Assembly: GCA_030528625.1 (NCBI GenBank)
Contig: JAUMYN010000002.1
Coordinates: forward strand, 1 to 64,000
Reading direction: 5' to 3'
Length of the DNA: 64,000 bases
Source: Candidatus Saccharimonadota bacterium
GTDB lineage: Bacteria > Patescibacteriota > Saccharimonadia > Saccharimonadales > Saccharimonadaceae
Below the pieces are notes generated by a model. The model did not search any database, was not told the origin of the DNA, and saw only the letters and a list, made by a program, of their open reading frames with translations. The translations under genes were made by a program, and so were the position numbers. Shown one piece after another: positions 1 to 24,247 of this stretch (position 1 is the stretch's first letter; every line of letters begins with the position of its first letter).

Positions 1-660
1 TTCACTATCGATCGTATATTATATTTAGCCTTGGCTGGTGGTCCAGCCAGATTCAAACAGGGTTTCTCGTGCCCCGTCCTACTCGATAAAACATATATAA
101 GGTCAGCGTCGTTTTCGCATACACGACTTTCACGTTCTTTGGTTAATCATTCAAATTATTCTGCTAACCACGCCGATTTCTTACCTTACTCACTGTTGAT
201 AGCCAGTGATCGCAAATCAGATTGCTGAACCGAAGTTCAACGCTCTGACTTGGTCATATGTTATATCACAACCCCTTATAAGTATTCGCCTATCAGCTTA
301 TTGTCTATTGATCCAAGCTTTGAACTTGCGCGGCGTTCGTTAAAACCCGAGTTCAAAGTATTTGAACAATAGACAAAACTTAAAAGGTTTGGGCTGTTGC
401 GATTTCGCTCGCCACTACTTTCGCAATCGTTATTTACTTTCTCTTCCTCAACCTACTAAGATGTTTCAGTTCAGTTGGTTCCCGCTCACGTACCTATGTG
501 TTCAGTACGAGGCAACATGGCATGTCCCATGCTGGGTTTCCCCATTCGGAAATCCCCGGATCAAAGCTTGTTGACAGCTTCCCGAGGCTTATCGCAGTCT
601 TCCACGTCCTTCATCGGTAATATACGTCTAGGCATCCATTTAGCGCCCTTGAGTACCTTT
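1..660 (-). rRNA. rrl: 23S ribosomal RNA, 5' part
   Basis: This is the 5' third of domain I of 23S rRNA; the gene runs out of the window at position 1. Read on the minus strand it shows conserved blocks such as GGATGCCTAGACG near the 5' end (about 620-640), GAAACATCTTAGTAGG (about 456-471) and CCAAGGCTAAATA near position 30. The exact 5' nucleotide is uncertain by about 15 bases. About 660 nt cover what takes about 455 nt in E. coli. Most of the surplus is an extended hairpin arm at 270-390, including a perfect 10-bp stem 301-310/367-376. I see no intron or homing-endonuclease ORF in this part. Confidence 0.95.
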
Positions 661-902
661 TTATGCATTGACTTAACTAGTAATTGTTACTTTACAATCA
701 CTACTACCGTCAATTAAAAACTCAATTTCTTCTCTTCAGATTGTTAATGATCGGTGCCTCACGCTTGAGTGCACACTCGATCCGTCAAAAAAGTTCACGC
801 ATCTGGTTTGCATTCAAGTTGTGGTTCTTACGTCACTGCCCTCGCACTATCCGCAGTGTCTTGCCAGAGGTTCTCTCGGAACATTCGCGTAACTGTTTAT
901 CC
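661..902 (-). other. 23S rRNA leader region
   Basis: No coding sequence is credible here. The stretch lies between the pyrD stop and the mature 23S 5' end and would be the pre-23S leader transcribed from the promoter at 903-931. It should carry the 5' half of the 23S processing stalk, but the partner lies outside the window, so the pairing cannot be tested. Confidence 0.6.
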
Positions 903-931
903 ACTATACAGCAGGTGTTTTCTTTTTGCAA
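903..931 (-). promoter_or_regulatory. Predicted 23S rRNA promoter overlapping pyrD stop
   Basis: Minus strand: -35 TTGCAA (926-931), 17-bp spacer, -10 TATAGT (903-908). The TAG stop codon of pyrD (904-906) lies inside the -10 box. Transcription would begin near 896 and run into 23S, so 23S need not be transcribed from the 16S promoter. Confidence 0.55.
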
Positions 932-2082
932 GTCTTTTTGGAAAGATTTTTAGAATTTTTGGGTGATTTTTTGCAATCGGCGCCAATCGCCTCTGAGATA
1001 TGCGAAAAACCATCCTTTTCAAGCAGAGAAACCAACTCTCGATTCATACGACCGATCAGCGCTGGCCCTTCAAAAATTACACCGGTAATAAGCCCTACTA
1101 AACTAGCCCCTGCGCGAATTTTTTGATATGCATCCTCGGCGGAAAATACTCCCCCCACCCCGATAACCACCAATCGATCGCCGTAGTTCTCGTACGTATG
1201 CCGTATTAGCTCCAGGCTGTGTTGCTGGGCGGGGATACCACTCAAGCCGCCTCGAATCTCGTCGGTTAACGGATCCTTCACCGCCACCCGATCGCGCTCT
1301 TTCACTAGATTTGCTACCGTCACTCCCTGCACATTGTGCTGCGCAATTACCGACAAGAGTCGCTCAAACTGTGCTCTATCGTAGAGATGCGGCATCTTGA
1401 TGAGCAGCGGCACATTCCGTCGCGGTACCGCATCAAGAGCGGCCAGTAGCGCCTTCAACGATTGCGGCTCAATAAAGGGCTCGCGCCCCGCATTTGGACA
1501 AGAGATGTTAATTTCAATAGCGGTCGCCAACTGATGTTCGATAATATACTCTGTTGTTTTTTTAACATCGTTGATAATCGCCTGCTCAGTGGGGCGCCCT
1601 TGTCCTGCGGTAATTGTTGTCGTATTAGCAATAACCGCTACCGATAGGATAGTCGGCATGTGTTGTAATTTTGTCAGCTTTTTAGCTATCTGGGGTGCGC
1701 AGTGCCCCAACCCCTTGTTTGGCATACCAGCAAACACTACCAGCGACCGAGTTTTCGGCAGTCGATGAAACCACGGCCGACGATTGCCTTTTCGCGGCTC
1801 CAGAGTCATTGATCCGCCAGTAGCGAACCCGAATCCGACGCGCTCCATTAGAGGTGCTAATTCAGCGCTCTTGTCAAAGCCAGCGGACAGCCCCACTGGG
1901 TTTTGAAACTGCATCCCCATAAGCTCCTGCTTTAAGGCCTCGTGGCTAAACGACCACCATCGCCCCAGCAGCCATCGCAGCGGTGCAATCGATTGTACGA
2001 GCCGACCCGCTGCCACTGTCAGCCGATGCGCCGTATCTGGACTCAGTAAAAACAACAACGGCTTCATCACGTATTTGTACAT
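904..2082 (-). CDS. pyrD: Dihydroorotate dehydrogenase, class 2-like
   Basis: 392 aa. PyrD oxidises dihydroorotate to orotate in pyrimidine synthesis. The helical N-terminal extension (residues 1-60) is typical of membrane-associated class 2 enzymes, followed by an FMN-binding TIM barrel with NPVGLSAGFDKSAEL near residue 62, an INISCPN active-site segment near 195 and a phosphate-binding GVGG/GLITG region near 300-330. The C-terminal 25 residues are a lysine-rich tail (SKKTCKKK) outside the family core. The start is supported by a -10 box (TATACT, 2089-2094) ending 6 bp before the ATG, which implies a leaderless mRNA. It lies between 16S and 23S, an unusual place. No other pyrimidine-synthesis gene is in the window. 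Confidence 0.93.
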   Translation of the reverse strand: MYKYVMKPLLFLLSPDTAHRLTVAAGRLVQSIAPLRWLLGRWWSFSHEALKQELMGMQFQNPVGLSAGFDKSAELAPLMERVGFGFATGGSMTLEPRKGNRRPWFHRLPKTRSLVVFAGMPNKGLGHCAPQIAKKLTKLQHMPTILSVAVIANTTTITAGQGRPTEQAIINDVKKTTEYIIEHQLATAIEINISCPNAGREPFIEPQSLKALLAALDAVPRRNVPLLIKMPHLYDRAQFERLLSVIAQHNVQGVTVANLVKERDRVAVKDPLTDEIRGGLSGIPAQQHSLELIRHTYENYGDRLVVIGVGGVFSAEDAYQKIRAGASLVGLITGVIFEGPALIGRMNRELVSLLEKDGFSHISEAIGADCKKSPKNSKNLSKKTCKKKTPAV

Positions 2083-2088
2083 GAAACG

Positions 2089-2094
2089 AGTATA
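2089..2094 (-). promoter_or_regulatory. -10 box of pyrD (leaderless)
   Basis: TATACT on the minus strand, separated from the pyrD ATG (2082) by only 6 bp. The expected transcription start therefore falls on or next to the start codon and leaves no room for a ribosome binding site. Confidence 0.5.
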
Positions 2095-2115
2095 CTACAG
2101 TTAAGCGCTAATCGT

Positions 2116-3813
2116 CTACGGCCCGATAATCGTCAGCACATCACTCTGGGCAGTCTCCGTATTGCCAGCCAAATCGACAAATGACACTTCAACCGCAATA
2201 GTCTTCCCGGCATCATCTGCACCAATATGGCAATACCTCTCCGTTTCCGGCGCAAGAAGCTGCCCGTTCTTATACCAACGATATATCACCTTATCCTGAG
2301 GTACTCCGTCACCATCACTCACCTCTGCAACTACGGAGCCGCCCGCTTTTATCTCGCCCTTTAGGTATACGCCAGCATGAGTATGGTTGCTTGCCACCCT
2401 ATTGTTCACACCTTGGTCGACAATCGCACCACCTAGAAGCACATTATCAATAACCTGTACCTGGCGAGAGGTAGATGAAAGATGTATGGTGTAATCATCT
2501 TCACCCAACACTCCTCGATGGATGCGATTACCTATAATCTGACTATCGGTTGCTCCGAGTACCATCACGCCATAGCCGTTGTTCACTAGCGTATTTCCCT
2601 CTATGACAATATCTTTTATCGTTGCCTGGTTTTCTTGACGTTTCACCAATGCCACCCCTGAGCCAAGATTGCCCGACATAACGGAGTCGCGGATTTCCAC
2701 TCCGATAACTGACTGTAGATGCTCTGGTTCAATATCGATACCAGCGCTCGGAGCGGTACCGTGCGTCGTACGAAATACCGAACGTAACACCTTAATAGAC
2801 GCTCCGTCGACAATCGATAAGCCCTGGCGTCGATTCCCTTCCGCTGTTACTCTATGCAAAATAATATCACGACTTCTGTGGGCAACATTTCCTCCAATAT
2901 AAAACCCATCACCCCAGAACTCCTTTGCCCTTACTCCTTCAATAACGACTTTTTTGGATGAAACAATGCTCACGCCATGGCCCCATTCGCCGCCTTCTCC
3001 CTGATGGTTCGCCCGATCACCTACCAAGGTGCCGCCTGCGATATGGGCATTTTCCACCCCGCTTAACCTGAAAATTGCATAATGCGAAGAACTAGTCGCC
3101 ATCGCCTGCAATGTCGTCGTCTCGGTCATTCGCACCGTTACATTACTCCTCATATACAGTCCCGTCAACCCGAACTGACCATCAGAGGCATTTAATGTGC
3201 TGTTAATCATATAGGTACCGCTAGGGATTTCGACTACTCCTCCGCCCGCAGCGGCCGCATAATCAATTGCGCGCTGAATGGCGATCGTGTCATCACTCAG
3301 GCCATCGCCTTTGGCGCCGAAGCGCTCGTCCGTGACATTTATTACCGTGCTATTAGACTGTCCTGGAATCAAAGTGATAACCTCCCCAGGTTGAGCAGGG
3401 CTGCTCGACGGCGGCAGCGCCGGCCGTGGGAGAATCGGTAATATGGCGGGATGTTCGGCGCGAGGCCGCGGCGGAGCGGTCGCTGGAGTCGTCACCGGTA
3501 CTCGCCGCGCAGTCCTACGAGAAGAGGTCGCTGTTGTCGCCTGCTGCCACCTGTCCGTTCCTCTTTCCTCTTCCCTCCTATCGGTGATCGATCCTTGCGA
3601 GTCATCGCTCTTGCGATAGTCTTGACCTGCCGCGACACCCTGCGCCGCGGTACGTTTCGTGACGACATCGCCGCTCGTATCACTGTTGAGGGCAATATGC
3701 CTATCTGGCGACAAAGCGGCCGCTACACCAAGTACCACAACCGCCGCAATCAGCGCCAGCATTGCTGCGACTATGCTTATGGTTATTCTTGACTGTTGGC
3801 TTGGTATGTCCAT
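2116..3813 (-). CDS. Membrane-anchored right-handed beta-helix protein (pectate-lyase-like)
   Basis: About 565 aa from ATG 3813; an in-frame TTG at 3840 would add 9 residues. One membrane segment follows a short basic start (about residues 12-36), then a Ser/Thr/Arg/Pro-rich linker to about 165. Next comes a pectate-lyase-3-like start (DERFGAKGDGLSDDTIAIQRAID) and many turns of a parallel beta-helix with N-rich ladders (IEGNTLVNNGYGVMVLGATDSQIIGN). An Ig-like domain (YRWYKNGQLL near the C-terminus) ends the protein. The architecture suggests an exported, anchored protein that binds or cuts polysaccharide (lyase, hydrolase or epimerase). No catalytic residues can be assigned, so activity is unproven. 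In an epibiont, the host cell surface is a plausible target. Confidence 0.8.
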   Translation of the reverse strand: MDIPSQQSRITISIVAAMLALIAAVVVLGVAAALSPDRHIALNSDTSGDVVTKRTAAQGVAAGQDYRKSDDSQGSITDRREEERGTDRWQQATTATSSRRTARRVPVTTPATAPPRPRAEHPAILPILPRPALPPSSSPAQPGEVITLIPGQSNSTVINVTDERFGAKGDGLSDDTIAIQRAIDYAAAAGGGVVEIPSGTYMINSTLNASDGQFGLTGLYMRSNVTVRMTETTTLQAMATSSSHYAIFRLSGVENAHIAGGTLVGDRANHQGEGGEWGHGVSIVSSKKVVIEGVRAKEFWGDGFYIGGNVAHRSRDIILHRVTAEGNRRQGLSIVDGASIKVLRSVFRTTHGTAPSAGIDIEPEHLQSVIGVEIRDSVMSGNLGSGVALVKRQENQATIKDIVIEGNTLVNNGYGVMVLGATDSQIIGNRIHRGVLGEDDYTIHLSSTSRQVQVIDNVLLGGAIVDQGVNNRVASNHTHAGVYLKGEIKAGGSVVAEVSDGDGVPQDKVIYRWYKNGQLLAPETERYCHIGADDAGKTIAVEVSFVDLAGNTETAQSDVLTIIGP

Positions 3814-3929
3814 AGTGTTTATTTTTGTATTGACGATCAATACGCCCCAATCAGGTATTGTCTTGGCTTACACCCTATACTGTAGCGGGTTTTGAGGTAA
3901 AAAGCAAATTGTTTACAGATAGCGGGGAA

Positions 3930-3955
3930 ATAAAAAACTACCCAATAGAGTAGTT
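3930..3955 (-). terminator. Terminator of the Val-Ile-Ala tRNA operon
   Basis: On the minus strand an 8-bp hairpin (AACTACTC/GGGTAGTT, loop TATT; 3936-3955) is followed by TTTTATTT. It lies 8 bp past the CCA end of tRNA-Val, so the tRNA operon ends here, before the beta-helix gene. Confidence 0.75.
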
Positions 3956-3963
3956 ATCGTTAA

Positions 3964-4040
3964 TGGTGGGCGCTGAGGGGCTCGAACCCCCGACCCTCTC
4001 GGTGTAAACGAGATGCTCTAGCCAACTGAGCTAAGCGCCC
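3964..4040 (-). tRNA. tRNA-Val (UAC)
   Basis: 77 nt with encoded CCA. It has a 7-bp acceptor stem GGGCGCT/AGCGCCC, a D-arm GCTC..GAGC, an anticodon stem TCTCG/CGAGA with loop TTTACAC (anticodon TAC) and a standard T-arm. Last gene of a three-tRNA operon. Confidence 0.97.
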
Positions 4041-4098
4041 GCACTGGGTGTATCCATAGCGCATATTATATCTCGCCCTGCTCGATATAATGACACTA

Positions 4099-4175
4099 TG
4101 GTGGGCGATGAGGGACTTGAACCTCCGACCTCGTCATTATCAGTGACGCGCTCTAACCAGCTGAGCTAATCGCCC
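4099..4175 (-). tRNA. tRNA-Ile (GAU)
   Basis: 77 nt with encoded CCA. Acceptor stem GGGCGAT/ATCGCCC; anticodon stem CGTCA/TGACG with loop CTGATAA, anticodon GAT. Middle gene of the operon. With tRNA-Ala it recalls the classic 16S-Ile-Ala-23S spacer, but here the order is Ala-Ile-Val behind a separate promoter. Confidence 0.97.
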
Positions 4176-4221
4176 TCATGCTGTCTTGGAGGATGCACCA
4201 GACTAAGCCTGACATCCTGTA

Positions 4222-4298
4222 TGGTGGAGGCACAGGGACTCGAACCCTGGACCCCCTGCTTGCAAAGCAGGTGCTCTAGCCAACTGAGCTATGCCCCC
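4222..4298 (-). tRNA. tRNA-Ala (UGC)
   Basis: 77 nt with encoded CCA. Acceptor stem GGGGGCA/TGCCTCC contains the G3:U70 wobble pair that identifies alanine tRNAs; anticodon loop TTTGCAA gives anticodon TGC. First gene of the tRNA operon. Confidence 0.98.
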
Positions 4299-4318
4299 AT
4301 TTCGCCAAGACTTACTCC

Positions 4319-4347
4319 ATTGTACCGTATCTTTTTCGTTCTGACAA
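4319..4347 (-). promoter_or_regulatory. Promoter of the Ala-Ile-Val tRNA operon
   Basis: -35 TTGTCA (4342-4347), 17-bp spacer, -10 TACAAT (4319-4324) on the minus strand, about 20 bp before tRNA-Ala. It is interleaved with the oppositely oriented promoter of the small membrane protein gene. Confidence 0.75.
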
Positions 4348-4350
4348 GAG

Positions 4351-4356
4351 TATAAT
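4351..4356 (+). promoter_or_regulatory. -10 box of the 77-aa membrane protein gene
   Basis: TATAAT on the plus strand, 9 bp before the ATG at 4366, so any leader would be only 2-3 nt. I see no good -35 element. Confidence 0.5.
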
Positions 4357-4365
4357 GGAAAAGAT

Positions 4366-4599
4366 ATGTATGAATTTAGTTTTGGCGCCTTTATTCTTGG
4401 AACGCTCATCCTGGCGAGCGGCGCAACCATAACGATCTATCATCAGAAAATTGCCGATAATCTGGGCGGCGGTGTCGCCAGCTATGATCGCTTTAAGTTT
4501 TGGGGTGTCGTCATCTGTATTGTCGGTCTTTTTATCGCCCTTGGGCTCCACTCCATCCTTCTCCATGGTCTGGTGAATTTGCTTTTTCATCGCTCCTGA
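4366..4599 (+). CDS. Small membrane protein, unknown function
   Basis: 77 aa with two hydrophobic segments (about residues 6-25 and 45-68) separated by a short polar loop (YHQKIADNLGGG). I recognise no domain. The ORF has a -10 box 9 bp upstream and a terminator 35 bp downstream, so it looks like a complete single-gene unit. It is inserted, on the opposite strand, between the tRNA operon and 16S. Confidence 0.7.
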   Translation: MYEFSFGAFILGTLILASGATITIYHQKIADNLGGGVASYDRFKFWGVVICIVGLFIALGLHSILLHGLVNLLFHRS

Positions 4600-4633
4600 C
4601 TCCACTCGCCGCAATAGGAATGATACTAAACGA

Positions 4634-4663
4634 AAACACCCCCTGGTTCACAAGGGGGTGTTT
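4634..4663. terminator. Bidirectional terminator between 16S and the small membrane gene
   Basis: Perfect inverted repeat AAACACCCCCT/AGGGGGTGTTT around an 8-nt loop, with T-rich ends on both strands. On the minus strand it lies about 165 bp past the mature 16S 3' end; on the plus strand it ends the 4366-4599 gene. It separates 16S transcription from the tRNAs and 23S. Confidence 0.85.
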
Positions 4664-4668
4664 CTTGA

Positions 4669-4694
4669 TAACAATTTGATTGTGCAATCCATCG
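4669..4694 (-). repeat. 16S pre-rRNA processing stem, 3' half
   Basis: The 20 bases at 4669-4688 are perfectly complementary to 6455-6474 in the 16S leader, and CATCG (4690-4694) extends the match after a small internal loop. Together they form a roughly 25-bp helix closing the whole 16S precursor, the usual substrate of RNase III-type processing. Confidence 0.85.
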
Positions 4695-4828
4695 CTGGTT
4701 TATCGTAGAGAAGGTTGTTGAACTTTGTCTCACCCCGATAGGGTAATAGTAAATATGTAAGCTCAGCATATTTACGAGACCGACCTAGCTCAACTTGTGA
4801 TTGCTCGACAAGTTGGCATCTATTCTCC

Positions 4829-6405
<1,577 letters not shown>

Positions 6406-19062: not shown

Positions 19063-19451
19063 TGGTGGAGCTGCCGGGTACCGCCCCCGGGTCCAACTGG
19101 TATCACGATAGTCGTCTACGAACATAGGCTTATTTCGTTGTTTTATAACAAGGCTTGGCTCAAAATAAGTCGAAAATACCAAGCCTCGTTACGCAGTAGT
19201 AGTCCCGCGCATTCGCTGCTGCCCGAACGCACAGCAAGCAACATCACTATGACACCTCGCACGCACTATGTTGCCTGTGCGACAAGATGGCTGTAAAAAA
19301 TTACGCTACAGCTGGTGCAAAGGCGCGAACCTGGAACAGGCTAGCAACCTTGCTTGCAAAGTTCTTTGCAGATATATCATACGTTACGCGTATCGTCGGT
19401 TCGCAAACTATCTTGATAACGTCCAATTGTCGAAAGCTATATCAGCCCCAC
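19063..19451 (-). ncRNA. ssrA: tmRNA (transfer-messenger RNA)
   Basis: About 389 nt. The 5' end GGGGCTGATATAGCTTTCGAC and the 3' end CAGCTCCACCA form a tRNA-like acceptor stem with the G3:U70 alanine identity pair. The T-arm reads GGACCCGGGGGCGGTACCC with a usual spacing. The resume codon is most likely GCA at 19369 (nt 83), and the tag frame runs to TAA at 19301-19303. It starts AKNFASKVAS and ends AFAPAVA, 22 residues in all, roughly twice the E. coli length. The hydrophobic Ala-rich end is as expected for protease recognition. tmRNA rescues stalled ribosomes together with SmpB, which is not in the window. Confidence 0.95.
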
Positions 19452-22208: not shown

Positions 22209-22211
22209 ATT

Positions 22212-22550
22212 GGCAGCCCACCGATAAGCCGGGTTCTGTCGTGGACGATCATCTATCTAGTTCGCCTGTTGCCAAGCGAATCAAGCGGTTATCGACCTGC
22301 GAGCGGACCACTCTAATGCAGATCTCCTTGCAGTCAACAGGGTTTACCTCCTCGCCATGTCACCATGACCAGCTGTAAGCTCTTACCTTACTCGTTTCAC
22401 CTTTTCCCGCGCGCCGTAACGCATGGGTAGTTTCGTTTCTGTGGCACTTTCCCTAGGGTTACCCCCGGTCGCCGTTAGCGACTGTCGGTGTCCTTCACTG
22501 CCCGGACTTTCCTCTTGACCGATGCCAAGCGATCGCCTAGCGGGCTGCCG
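22212..22550 (-). ncRNA. rnpB: RNase P RNA, type A-like
   Basis: About 339 nt. The conserved cores are present: GAGGAAAGTCCGGGC (22501-22515) near the 5' end and ACAGAACCCGGCTTA (about 22224-22238) near the 3' end, with the outer stem CGGCAGCCC/GGGCTGCC closing the molecule. It is the catalytic subunit that matures tRNA 5' ends. The 5' end starts only 7 bp past the stop codon of the Nudix-RNase H gene, whose last bases supply its -10 box. Confidence 0.97.
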
Positions 22551-22556
22551 ATCCCT

Positions 22557-22562
22557 ATTATA
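22557..22562 (-). promoter_or_regulatory. -10 box of rnpB inside the upstream stop codon
   Basis: TATAAT on the minus strand. The TAA at 22558-22560 is also the stop codon of the Nudix-RNase H gene. The mature RNA begins 6-7 bp later, as expected for a transcription start. The -35 is weak. Confidence 0.7.
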
Positions 22563-23430
22563 CGATATCCGCACGCTTTTTGCTATCGTCAAGCACCTTA
22601 TTCACCATGCCGTCGGCCAGCCGATTCATTTCGCGCGGCACATGAACAAACTTCACCTTATCGAACTGGGGAATAAGCTCTCGAATCAACTCGTGCACCG
22701 GCCATAATTCGCGGTTCTTTATCTTGTATACACCGTTAAGCTGATGCACCACTAGCATACTGTCGACGCGCACCTCGATTGTCTGCCAGCCTCGCGCCAG
22801 AGCTGCCTCTAGCCCCAGCCTTACTCCCTGATATTCAGCCTGGTTATTTGTCGTAATGCCAAGGTATTCGCCTCCCTGATCCACCACTTCCGCCTGCTCA
22901 TTCACTAACACATAGCCGGCCGCCGATGGACCGGGGTTGCCTCGAGAGCCGCCATCAGTATACACCACCGGCATCGACACTCCCTGCGATACTGTCGATA
23001 CTACAGGCTGGGCATTGGACAGTCCCAGCGCCGAAAGTGTCAGTCCAGTGAGCTGCTCAAGCGGCAGTTTTCCAGGTTGGTACCAAACATACTTATCATA
23101 GTGACGCCCCAGATTGATTGCCCGCTTGGTGCGATCAAACACCGCATGATAGAGCACAATCGCATACTGGATGTCCCTGTCATCGGCGTCAGTATAGGTG
23201 AATACATTGCTAACAACAGCGTCTATTGCAGTTTCCCCTATCGCCTCGCCAAGGTGGCGACGAAGTGCGTCTTCTGGTTGCTCATCCGCAAGCAACCTTC
23301 CTCCAGGCAGTTCATAATACCCCAAAATACTCTCTCGGCCATCCGACCGGCGGAGAAGTAGAACTTTTCCCTTGTGTTCTAAAACAATTCGTACCGCAAT
23401 TCGTTGGATCATACCCGCTTCTTGCACCAT
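22558..23430 (-). CDS. Nudix domain - RNase HI fusion protein
   Basis: 290 aa, two domains. Residues about 7-135 are Nudix-like, but the Nudix box is degenerate: at 44-66 the pattern GX5EX7REUXEEXGU reads with His59 for the first Glu and Ala63 for one of the EE pair, so hydrolysis is doubtful. Residues about 153-285 are RNase HI-like with Asp159 (YTDGGSRGNPG), Glu199 (NNQAEY), Asp223 (VDSML) and Asp273 (RLADGM), so all four acidic catalytic residues are present. It should cut RNA in RNA-DNA hybrids. It lies between a candidate structured RNA and RNase P RNA. Alternative start: ATG at 23412. Confidence 0.85.
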   Translation of the reverse strand: MVQEAGMIQRIAVRIVLEHKGKVLLLRRSDGRESILGYYELPGGRLLADEQPEDALRRHLGEAIGETAIDAVVSNVFTYTDADDRDIQYAIVLYHAVFDRTKRAINLGRHYDKYVWYQPGKLPLEQLTGLTLSALGLSNAQPVVSTVSQGVSMPVVYTDGGSRGNPGPSAAGYVLVNEQAEVVDQGGEYLGITTNNQAEYQGVRLGLEAALARGWQTIEVRVDSMLVVHQLNGVYKIKNRELWPVHELIRELIPQFDKVKFVHVPREMNRLADGMVNKVLDDSKKRADIV

Positions 23431-23433
23431 AAA

Positions 23434-23575
23434 GCCCTGATCGCGAGCACGTGATATTCCCCGCTTTAGCGCAAGGTGGGTGCTCGCAACCGACTACCAC
23501 GATAGACCGATCATATAAAGCTCCCTATCACATGATGTTAGGAAAATCATGAGTGCCCGCGGACAGATCAGGGCT
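23434..23575 (-). ncRNA. Candidate structured RNA or riboswitch-like leader, about 142 nt
   Basis: The ends pair perfectly (AGCCCTGATC/GATCAGGGCT; 23566-23575/23434-23443). Moving inward, after a small bulge a second 9-bp helix (CGCGGGCAC/GTGCTCGCG) stacks on the 3' side, then TGATA/TATCA, a side hairpin CATGAT/ATCATG (23536-23541/23551-23556 by eye) and a terminal region with CCTTGC/GCGGGG. A TATAAT box ends 7 bp before its 5' base. Its 3' end lies 3 bp before the ATG of the Nudix-RNase H gene, and the only AGGG near that ATG is buried in the closing helix. It could be an independent RNA or a translational switch. I recognise no known class. Confidence 0.6.
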
Positions 23576-23582
23576 ACCTCTA

Positions 23583-23588
23583 ATTATA
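23583..23588 (-). promoter_or_regulatory. -10 box of the structured RNA inside the M50 stop codon
   Basis: TATAAT on the minus strand. TAA at 23584-23586 is the stop codon of the M50 gene. This repeats the GTA-TAA-T arrangement found before rnpB. Confidence 0.65.
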
Positions 23589-24234
23589 CACCAAATATCC
23601 AGAAAAAGGCAGTCATAATAGCATTGACACACATCAACATTACTTTGCCCAAAAACGATGAACCAAGCAGTACCAGCGCAAATACCAGTAGGATGCCATA
23701 CTGTTCGACCACTTCCATGCCGCGCCGCACACTATCTGGTGCCAGCGCGTAGAGAAAGCGTGAGCCATCCAGCGGTGGAATCGGCAGCATATTGAACACA
23801 AAGAAGCCTAAGTTAATCACCACCCCTGCTGCCAATACCTGCGGCAAAAAACCCAGCTGGGCGACTCCCTGGCTCGTGAATACGCCGCACCACACCCCAA
23901 TACCGAACACTGCAAAAGCAATGAGTAGGTTGGTCAGCGGGCCAGCGATCGCTACCATGGCCGCCCCCCACTCACCATAGCGAAGATTACGCGGATCAAG
24001 CGGTACAGGCTTGGCTCCACCGAAAATCGGGCCGCCCACCAACGCCAGCATGAGGGGCAGTAGGATCGTCATAAAGGGGTCGATATGTCGAATAGGGTTT
24101 AGACTAAGCCGACCCTCTTGCCGGGCAGTATCATCTCCAAGCGCATATCCGACAAAAGCATGCACCGCTTCGTGGAGTGTCATTGACACTAAAATAACAC
24201 TAATAACAATGGCAATATATGTCACGCTGACCAT
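23584..24234 (-). CDS. Site-2 protease family (M50) membrane metalloprotease
   Basis: About 216 aa. It has the zinc-binding HEAVH motif near residue 21 in the first membrane helix and the second metal motif NMLPIPPLDGSR near 150, with about six hydrophobic segments. S2P proteases cut membrane-embedded substrates such as anti-sigma factors. The ATG at 24243 overlaps the -10 box (TATAATGG), so the next in-frame ATG at 24234, 7 bp past the -10, is the likely start (MVSVTYIAIVIS). Confidence 0.93.
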   Translation of the reverse strand: MVSVTYIAIVISVILVSMTLHEAVHAFVGYALGDDTARQEGRLSLNPIRHIDPFMTILLPLMLALVGGPIFGGAKPVPLDPRNLRYGEWGAAMVAIAGPLTNLLIAFAVFGIGVWCGVFTSQGVAQLGFLPQVLAAGVVINLGFFVFNMLPIPPLDGSRFLYALAPDSVRRGMEVVEQYGILLVFALVLLGSSFLGKVMLMCVNAIMTAFFWIFGV

Positions 24235-24241
24235 GATTGCC

Positions 24242-24247
24242 ATTATA
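24242..24247 (-). promoter_or_regulatory. -10 box of the M50 gene (leaderless)
   Basis: TATAAT on the minus strand, 7 bp before ATG 24234. It also covers the upstream in-frame ATG, which therefore cannot be in the transcript. Confidence 0.6.

Follow-up and report, generated by a model that had tools for sequence, protein, structure and literature searches.

Locus and promoter

The region between an M50 peptidase gene (Pfam PF02163) and a Nudix-RNase H gene of this saccharibacterial contig raises the question of whether a structured element found there is a switch for the following gene or an RNA gene in its own right, and, in the second case, to which class of RNA it belongs. The element is located at 23434-23575 on the minus strand, and is read from 23575 to 23434 of the window, i.e. 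the whole stretch of 64,000 nucleotides that was analysed. A first-pass annotation made from the sequence had given these coordinates together with complementary ends, a TATAAT box ahead of the element and an ATG 3 nt past it, and all of this is borne out: the ends (GCCCUGAUC / GAUCAGGGC) form 9 bp, or 10 with one flanking A-U pair, the box lies at 23588-23583 on the minus strand and the ATG at 23430. This -10 box extends into the stop codon region of the M50 gene ahead of it, the RNA starts after that stop codon, and TATA(A/C)T is present just 5' of the RNA in all 22 aligned copies. The downstream gene (22558-23412, minus strand; Pfam NUDIX, RNase_H and RVT_3), whose homologues start at ATG 23412, is a neighbour outside the RNA, and RNase P RNA is found at 22548-22209 (Rfam).

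The minus strand of the element folds at -57.5 kcal/mol, compared with -43.6 +/- 3.8 kcal/mol for shuffled sequences (z -3.7; none of 200 shuffles as good); the folding z of the plus strand is -3.0. The element is a real, well-conserved structured RNA.

Similarity to 6S RNA

6S RNA is the small RNA by which many bacteria turn RNA polymerase off and then on again. The element, in which no class had been recognised at first, can now be assigned: it is very probably a divergent and short 6S RNA (SsrS) of about 142 nt, with a free-standing gene and its own TATAAT promoter. In a permissive search the best Rfam match is 6S RNA (RF00013), on the same strand and over model positions 1-187 of 187, at 31.1 bits and E 1e-4. 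The comparison with Rfam that the first-pass annotation had proposed names this family, yet the score falls under the gathering cut-off of 46.4 bits, for which reason a default scan at that cut-off gives no match at the element. Besides 6S RNA, no Rfam match up to E = 1 occurs within 23300-23700; an mt-tmRNA match on the opposite strand (E 8.1) was set aside as chance. RF00013 run over the whole genome gave no match, a limit of the fast initial step of that search, since cmscan on the stretch detects it. Relatives match RF00013 independently, with 45.8 (L010), 40.4 (L071), 38.2 (L024), 32.2 (L013), 31.2 (L072), 30.8 (L069) and 30.7 bits (L004).

A second covariance model, R1, was built solely from 22 saccharibacterial copies (alignment A1); it scores the window element at 134 bits and finds one copy in the genome. 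Of 287 genomes sampled across the phylum, 21 match RF00013, four of them above the Rfam cut-off, and 72 match R1. The two models choose the identical place in 11 of the 11 genomes of this sample where both report something (G066, G086, G280, G287, G316, G318, G439, G455, G479, G513 and G529). With filters off, the best R1 match is the RF00013 site in each of 15 loci selected by RF00013; 12 of these reach E < 0.001 and three are weak (E 0.007 to 0.2). The same agreement is seen at all four loci above the cut-off, with E < 0.001 at three. We regard this agreement between models of separate origin as decisive for homology to 6S RNA. R1 gives no match with E. coli ssrS, so that the link to the textbook members of the family runs only through the Rfam model.

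Conserved secondary structure

Covariation indicates that the conserved fold is the 6S fold; (i) a closing stem; (ii) the P2 helix; (iii) a central bubble; (iv) an apical arm with GGG/CCC; (v) a hairpin in the 3' strand of the bubble and (vi) a collapse helix. RNAalifold, applied to a MAFFT alignment of the 22 copies that was not fitted to any structure, gives 36 pairs, 18 of them with a compensatory change. In this set 93.7% of cells are paired, compared with 38-48% after a shift of the partner by one to three columns, and the covariation score of the fold is 0.416 versus 0.198 after shuffling; the alignment across Saccharibacteria for compensatory changes, the check set in the first-pass annotation, was thereby passed. 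The phylum-level alignment A2, which is fitted to R1 and so favours the R1 fold, contains compensatory changes in 32 of 36 pairs.

P1a and P1b, both with compensatory changes, make up the long closing stem typical of the 6S family, in which the two ends of the RNA pair with each other. P1a joins GCCCUGAUC (23566-23574, minus strand) with GAUCAGGGC (23434-23442, minus strand), with 93% of cells paired and compensatory changes in 5 of 7 pairs. P1b joins the 5' strand GCGGGCAC (23553-23560, minus strand) with GUGCUCGC (23443-23450, minus strand); 81.5% of cells are paired, 6 of 8 pairs show a compensatory change and covariation is 0.555 versus 0.318 after shuffling. The second 9-bp helix that had been described earlier, GCGAGCAC / GUGCUCGC, can form in the window but lacks conservation: among the 22 copies 52.9% of cells pair, its covariation is below that of shuffles and, besides the window, two close relatives alone have it in full. 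In the conserved fold GUGCUCGC pairs with GCGGGCAC in P1b and not with GCGAGCAC of the apical arm.

P2 is formed by GAUUUUCC (23541-23548, minus strand), which is expected to belong to the template of the short product RNA (pRNA), and GGAAUAUC (23460-23453), and is paired in 98.9% of cells in the 22 copies. It covaries across the phylum (none of 5000 permutations as good), with examples such as UUCAUAUCC/GGGUAUGAA, AAGAUCG/CGAUCUU and AACACAAA/UUUGUGUU; in some sequences of the phylum the best helix in this test is P1b, not P2. The 5' strand of the central bubble (5'-CB; 23526-23540, minus strand) contains GUGAUA (23531-23526), which in the window can pair with UAUCAC (23456-23451) as the central-bubble collapse helix (CBCH). 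In 41 sequences the own pairs of the collapse helix covary above all 5000 permutations, with examples UUGAUA/UAUCAA, UGAUA/UAUCA, UAGAUAU/AUAUCUA, CGAUA/UGUCG, UUGGA/UCCAA and GCUUGU/ACAAGC. A hairpin in the 5' bubble strand, AUGAU/AUCAU, is also part of the conserved fold.

The apical arm (23478-23525, minus strand) is based on GGG (23525-23523) and CCC (23480-23478), which hardly vary among 30 sequences from across the phylum, and includes an apical stem-loop with CGUGG; most pairs of the apical helices show compensatory change. The hairpin of the 3' bubble strand, CCUUGC GCUAAA GCGGGG (23459-23476, minus strand), is paired in 99.2% of cells in the 22 copies and, with compensatory changes, in 95.6% at the phylum level. 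The 3' strand of P2, GGAAUAUC (23453-23460, minus strand), is common to P2, this hairpin and the collapse helix, and P2 excludes the other two. The two states lie about 1.5 kcal/mol apart in the window (-55.3 and -56.8). For the window sequence alone, the minimum-energy fold differs from the conserved one (-57.5 versus -56.8 kcal/mol).

Occurrence and gene order

R1 finds a copy in 192 of the 245 genomes of the order (nearly four-fifths), almost always a single one. The 53 genomes with no R1 match could represent losses or divergence beyond the filters; many weak matches and some misses in the genus g2 suggest a fast-evolving 6S RNA there. By blastn the core (about 23550-23453) is present in all 8 genomes of the same genus and in many others of the family, with 72-88% identity; the letters of the closing stem drift. 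A pattern of the conserved core, searched over about 85,000 species genomes, gave 30 matches. Almost all of these have Saccharibacteria, Saccharimonadia, TM7 or Nanosynbacter in the title; four carry different or unspecific titles ('Chloroflexi bacterium', 'bacterium' twice and 'Patescibacteria group bacterium').

Members of the family usually have, in this order, M50 protease, 6S RNA, (tRNA-Pro), Nudix-RNase H and rnpB. In 12 of 21 relatives tRNA-Pro directly follows the element, and in L005 and L006 RNase P RNA does so, with no Nudix gene in between. Given the conserved -10 box and a downstream gene that varies (tRNA-Pro, Nudix-RNase H or rnpB), the 6S gene is very probably free-standing, with its own TATAAT promoter and no tie to one downstream gene. 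The cluster at 22209-24243 is kept in the relatives L003-L065 and L091-L120, and tRNA-Pro is absent in the window and several relatives. Elsewhere in the phylum, the 6S candidates of L066, L068 and L071 are followed by tRNA genes on the same strand.

Alternative explanations

The first-pass annotation had allowed for either a small RNA gene or a riboswitch-like switch acting in cis on translation, in which the closing helix would mask the ribosome-binding site of the Nudix-RNase H gene. Of the two, the small RNA gene is correct; the switch is unsupported and, on account of gene order and start codon, can hardly be credited. Its appeal lies in the first in-frame ATG (23430), 3 nt past the element, and in the AGGG inside the closing helix. 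Homologues of the protein, however, mostly align from residue 7 (MIQRI...), so that ATG 23412, and not 23430, is probably the true start; the gene begun at 23430 is probably six codons too long (23410-23430). The only purine-rich site for ATG 23430 had been placed in the closing helix, but the conserved start has its own AAGAAG (23423-23418), 5 nt upstream and outside the element, and its ribosome-binding site is not sequestered. Nor is there a constant association with a controlled gene, as tRNA-Pro, a longer spacer or RNase P RNA separates element and gene in most relatives and at some loci the Nudix gene is missing; the match to 6S RNA also speaks against a switch. The link that had been suggested with the RNase H-Nudix protein and with RNase P RNA is one of conserved gene neighbourhood and does not count as evidence of regulation.

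A different polymerase-binding RNA of 6S-like shape, one that, such as actinobacterial Ms1, binds the core enzyme without sigma, is highly improbable. PMC9130861 and PMC4191392 report a structural relationship of Ms1 to 6S RNA, the former giving it a 6S-like overall shape; Ms1 differs in binding core polymerase. The Rfam 6S model, though, matches the element over its full length and is the only family to match better than chance, others giving nothing comparable (a comparison in which Rfam 15 may contain no Ms1 model), and the parts for pRNA-driven release, namely the template strand of P2, the 3' hairpin and the collapse helix, are conserved. That the element represents an undescribed class of small RNA resembling 6S RNA by convergence or chance could be argued from the saccharibacterial scores under the Rfam cut-off. 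Such a class is nevertheless extremely unlikely, as the two models, built independently, coincide at loci all across the phylum, four of which score above the Rfam cut-off with RF00013. The assignment to 6S RNA is the reading followed below.

Comparison with known 6S RNAs and proposed function

The saccharibacterial RNA shares with 6S RNA (RF00013) a full-length model match on the same strand, an own promoter, a single copy and the order of its parts: closing stem, P2, central bubble, apical arm with GGG...CCCACC and 3'-bubble hairpin. It differs in its length of about 142 nt, compared with the usual 180-200 nt, in its shorter closing and apical arms, and in a window score under the Rfam cut-off. 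The E. coli 6S gene adjoins ygfA/fau, whereas the saccharibacterial one is situated between the M50 protease gene and tRNA-Pro, Nudix-RNase H or rnpB. As in B. subtilis 6S-1, a 3'-bubble hairpin and a collapse helix are found besides P2 (PMC8876501), although the saccharibacterial RNA is shorter; unlike B. subtilis 6S-1, it forms its 3' hairpin with the 3' strand of P2, an arrangement ascribed to the E. coli type in PMC8876501.

In the scheme of PMC8876501, 6S RNAs have a central bubble flanked by a closing stem on one side and an apical stem on the other. The template for pRNA comprises the 5' strands of the bubble and of P2; once polymerase has transcribed it into pRNA, P2 comes apart, and the RNA folds a 3'-bubble hairpin (E. 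coli type) or a collapse helix (B. subtilis type) while it dissociates from the enzyme. All parts of this scheme are present in the saccharibacterial RNA, whose best conserved letters, UUUUCCUAAC, are the expected pRNA template. Polymerase binding, pRNA synthesis, release and a role in growth phase are carried over from the E. coli and B. subtilis 6S RNAs, and for the saccharibacterial RNA we infer them by analogy. Since the central bubble would imitate an open promoter, the RNA is expected to bind the RNA polymerase-sigma70 holoenzyme and to keep the enzyme inactive. When nucleotides return, polymerase would transcribe a short pRNA from the 5' sides of the bubble and of P2; this synthesis would open P2, allow the collapse helix and the 3'-bubble hairpin to form, and so release the polymerase.

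By analogy with B. subtilis 6S-1, where pRNA starts at nt 40 (PMC8876501), the proposed start template is the C at 23537 (minus strand), i.e. nt 39-40 of an RNA starting at 23575 or 23576. A pRNA from this position would probably read 5'-GUUAGGAAAAUCAU..., and the predicted short products open with GUUAGG or AUGUUAGG. The pRNA of B. subtilis 6S-1 is 5'-GUUCGGUCAAAACUA (PMC12005410); both would be initiated with G and open similarly (GUUAGGAAAA as predicted here, GUUCGGUCAAAA in B. subtilis, PMC12005410).

The genome of the window (99.99% complete) encodes one Sigma70_r2 protein, and relatives with a match to the RNA encode one to five sigma70-type factors; when tested, the idea that one such factor is the norm in the order proved untrue, as many relatives have two to five. 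With one sigma70-type factor, the window's genome would offer a clean case for the role of 6S RNA without sigma competition. In such a genome 6S RNA could not shift polymerase between sigma70-type factors, and we suggest tentatively, with less than even confidence, that in these tiny epibiotic cells it may serve as a general off-switch of transcription, which would act once the nucleotides supplied by the host are exhausted and be undone through pRNA synthesis on their return. Its presence in most sampled genomes of the order would make 6S RNA a testable global regulator of transcription for strongly reduced, host-dependent bacteria. At its normal cut-off Rfam overlooks 6S RNA in Saccharibacteria, and the saccharibacterial model is usable for annotation.

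A literature search found no mention of 6S RNA together with Saccharibacteria or CPR/candidate phyla radiation, and none of ssrS with TM7x; 6S RNA and Patescibacteria were named together only in a paper on mitochondrial SRP. Barrick 2005 and Wehner 2014, the two principal accounts of how 6S RNA is distributed, lie outside this search, so that an earlier mention of 6S RNA in TM7 is possible.

Other features of the window

A divergent saccharibacterial tmRNA is located at 19063-19449 on the minus strand (Rfam, 82 bits), and was missed by ARAGORN. The rRNA genes within 1-6403 lie far apart, with 16S at 6403-4833 and the start of 23S at 662. Between them are tRNA-Ala, tRNA-Ile and tRNA-Val (4298-3964), then two large ORFs, at 3840-2116 and at 2082-904, the latter resembling dihydroorotate dehydrogenase.
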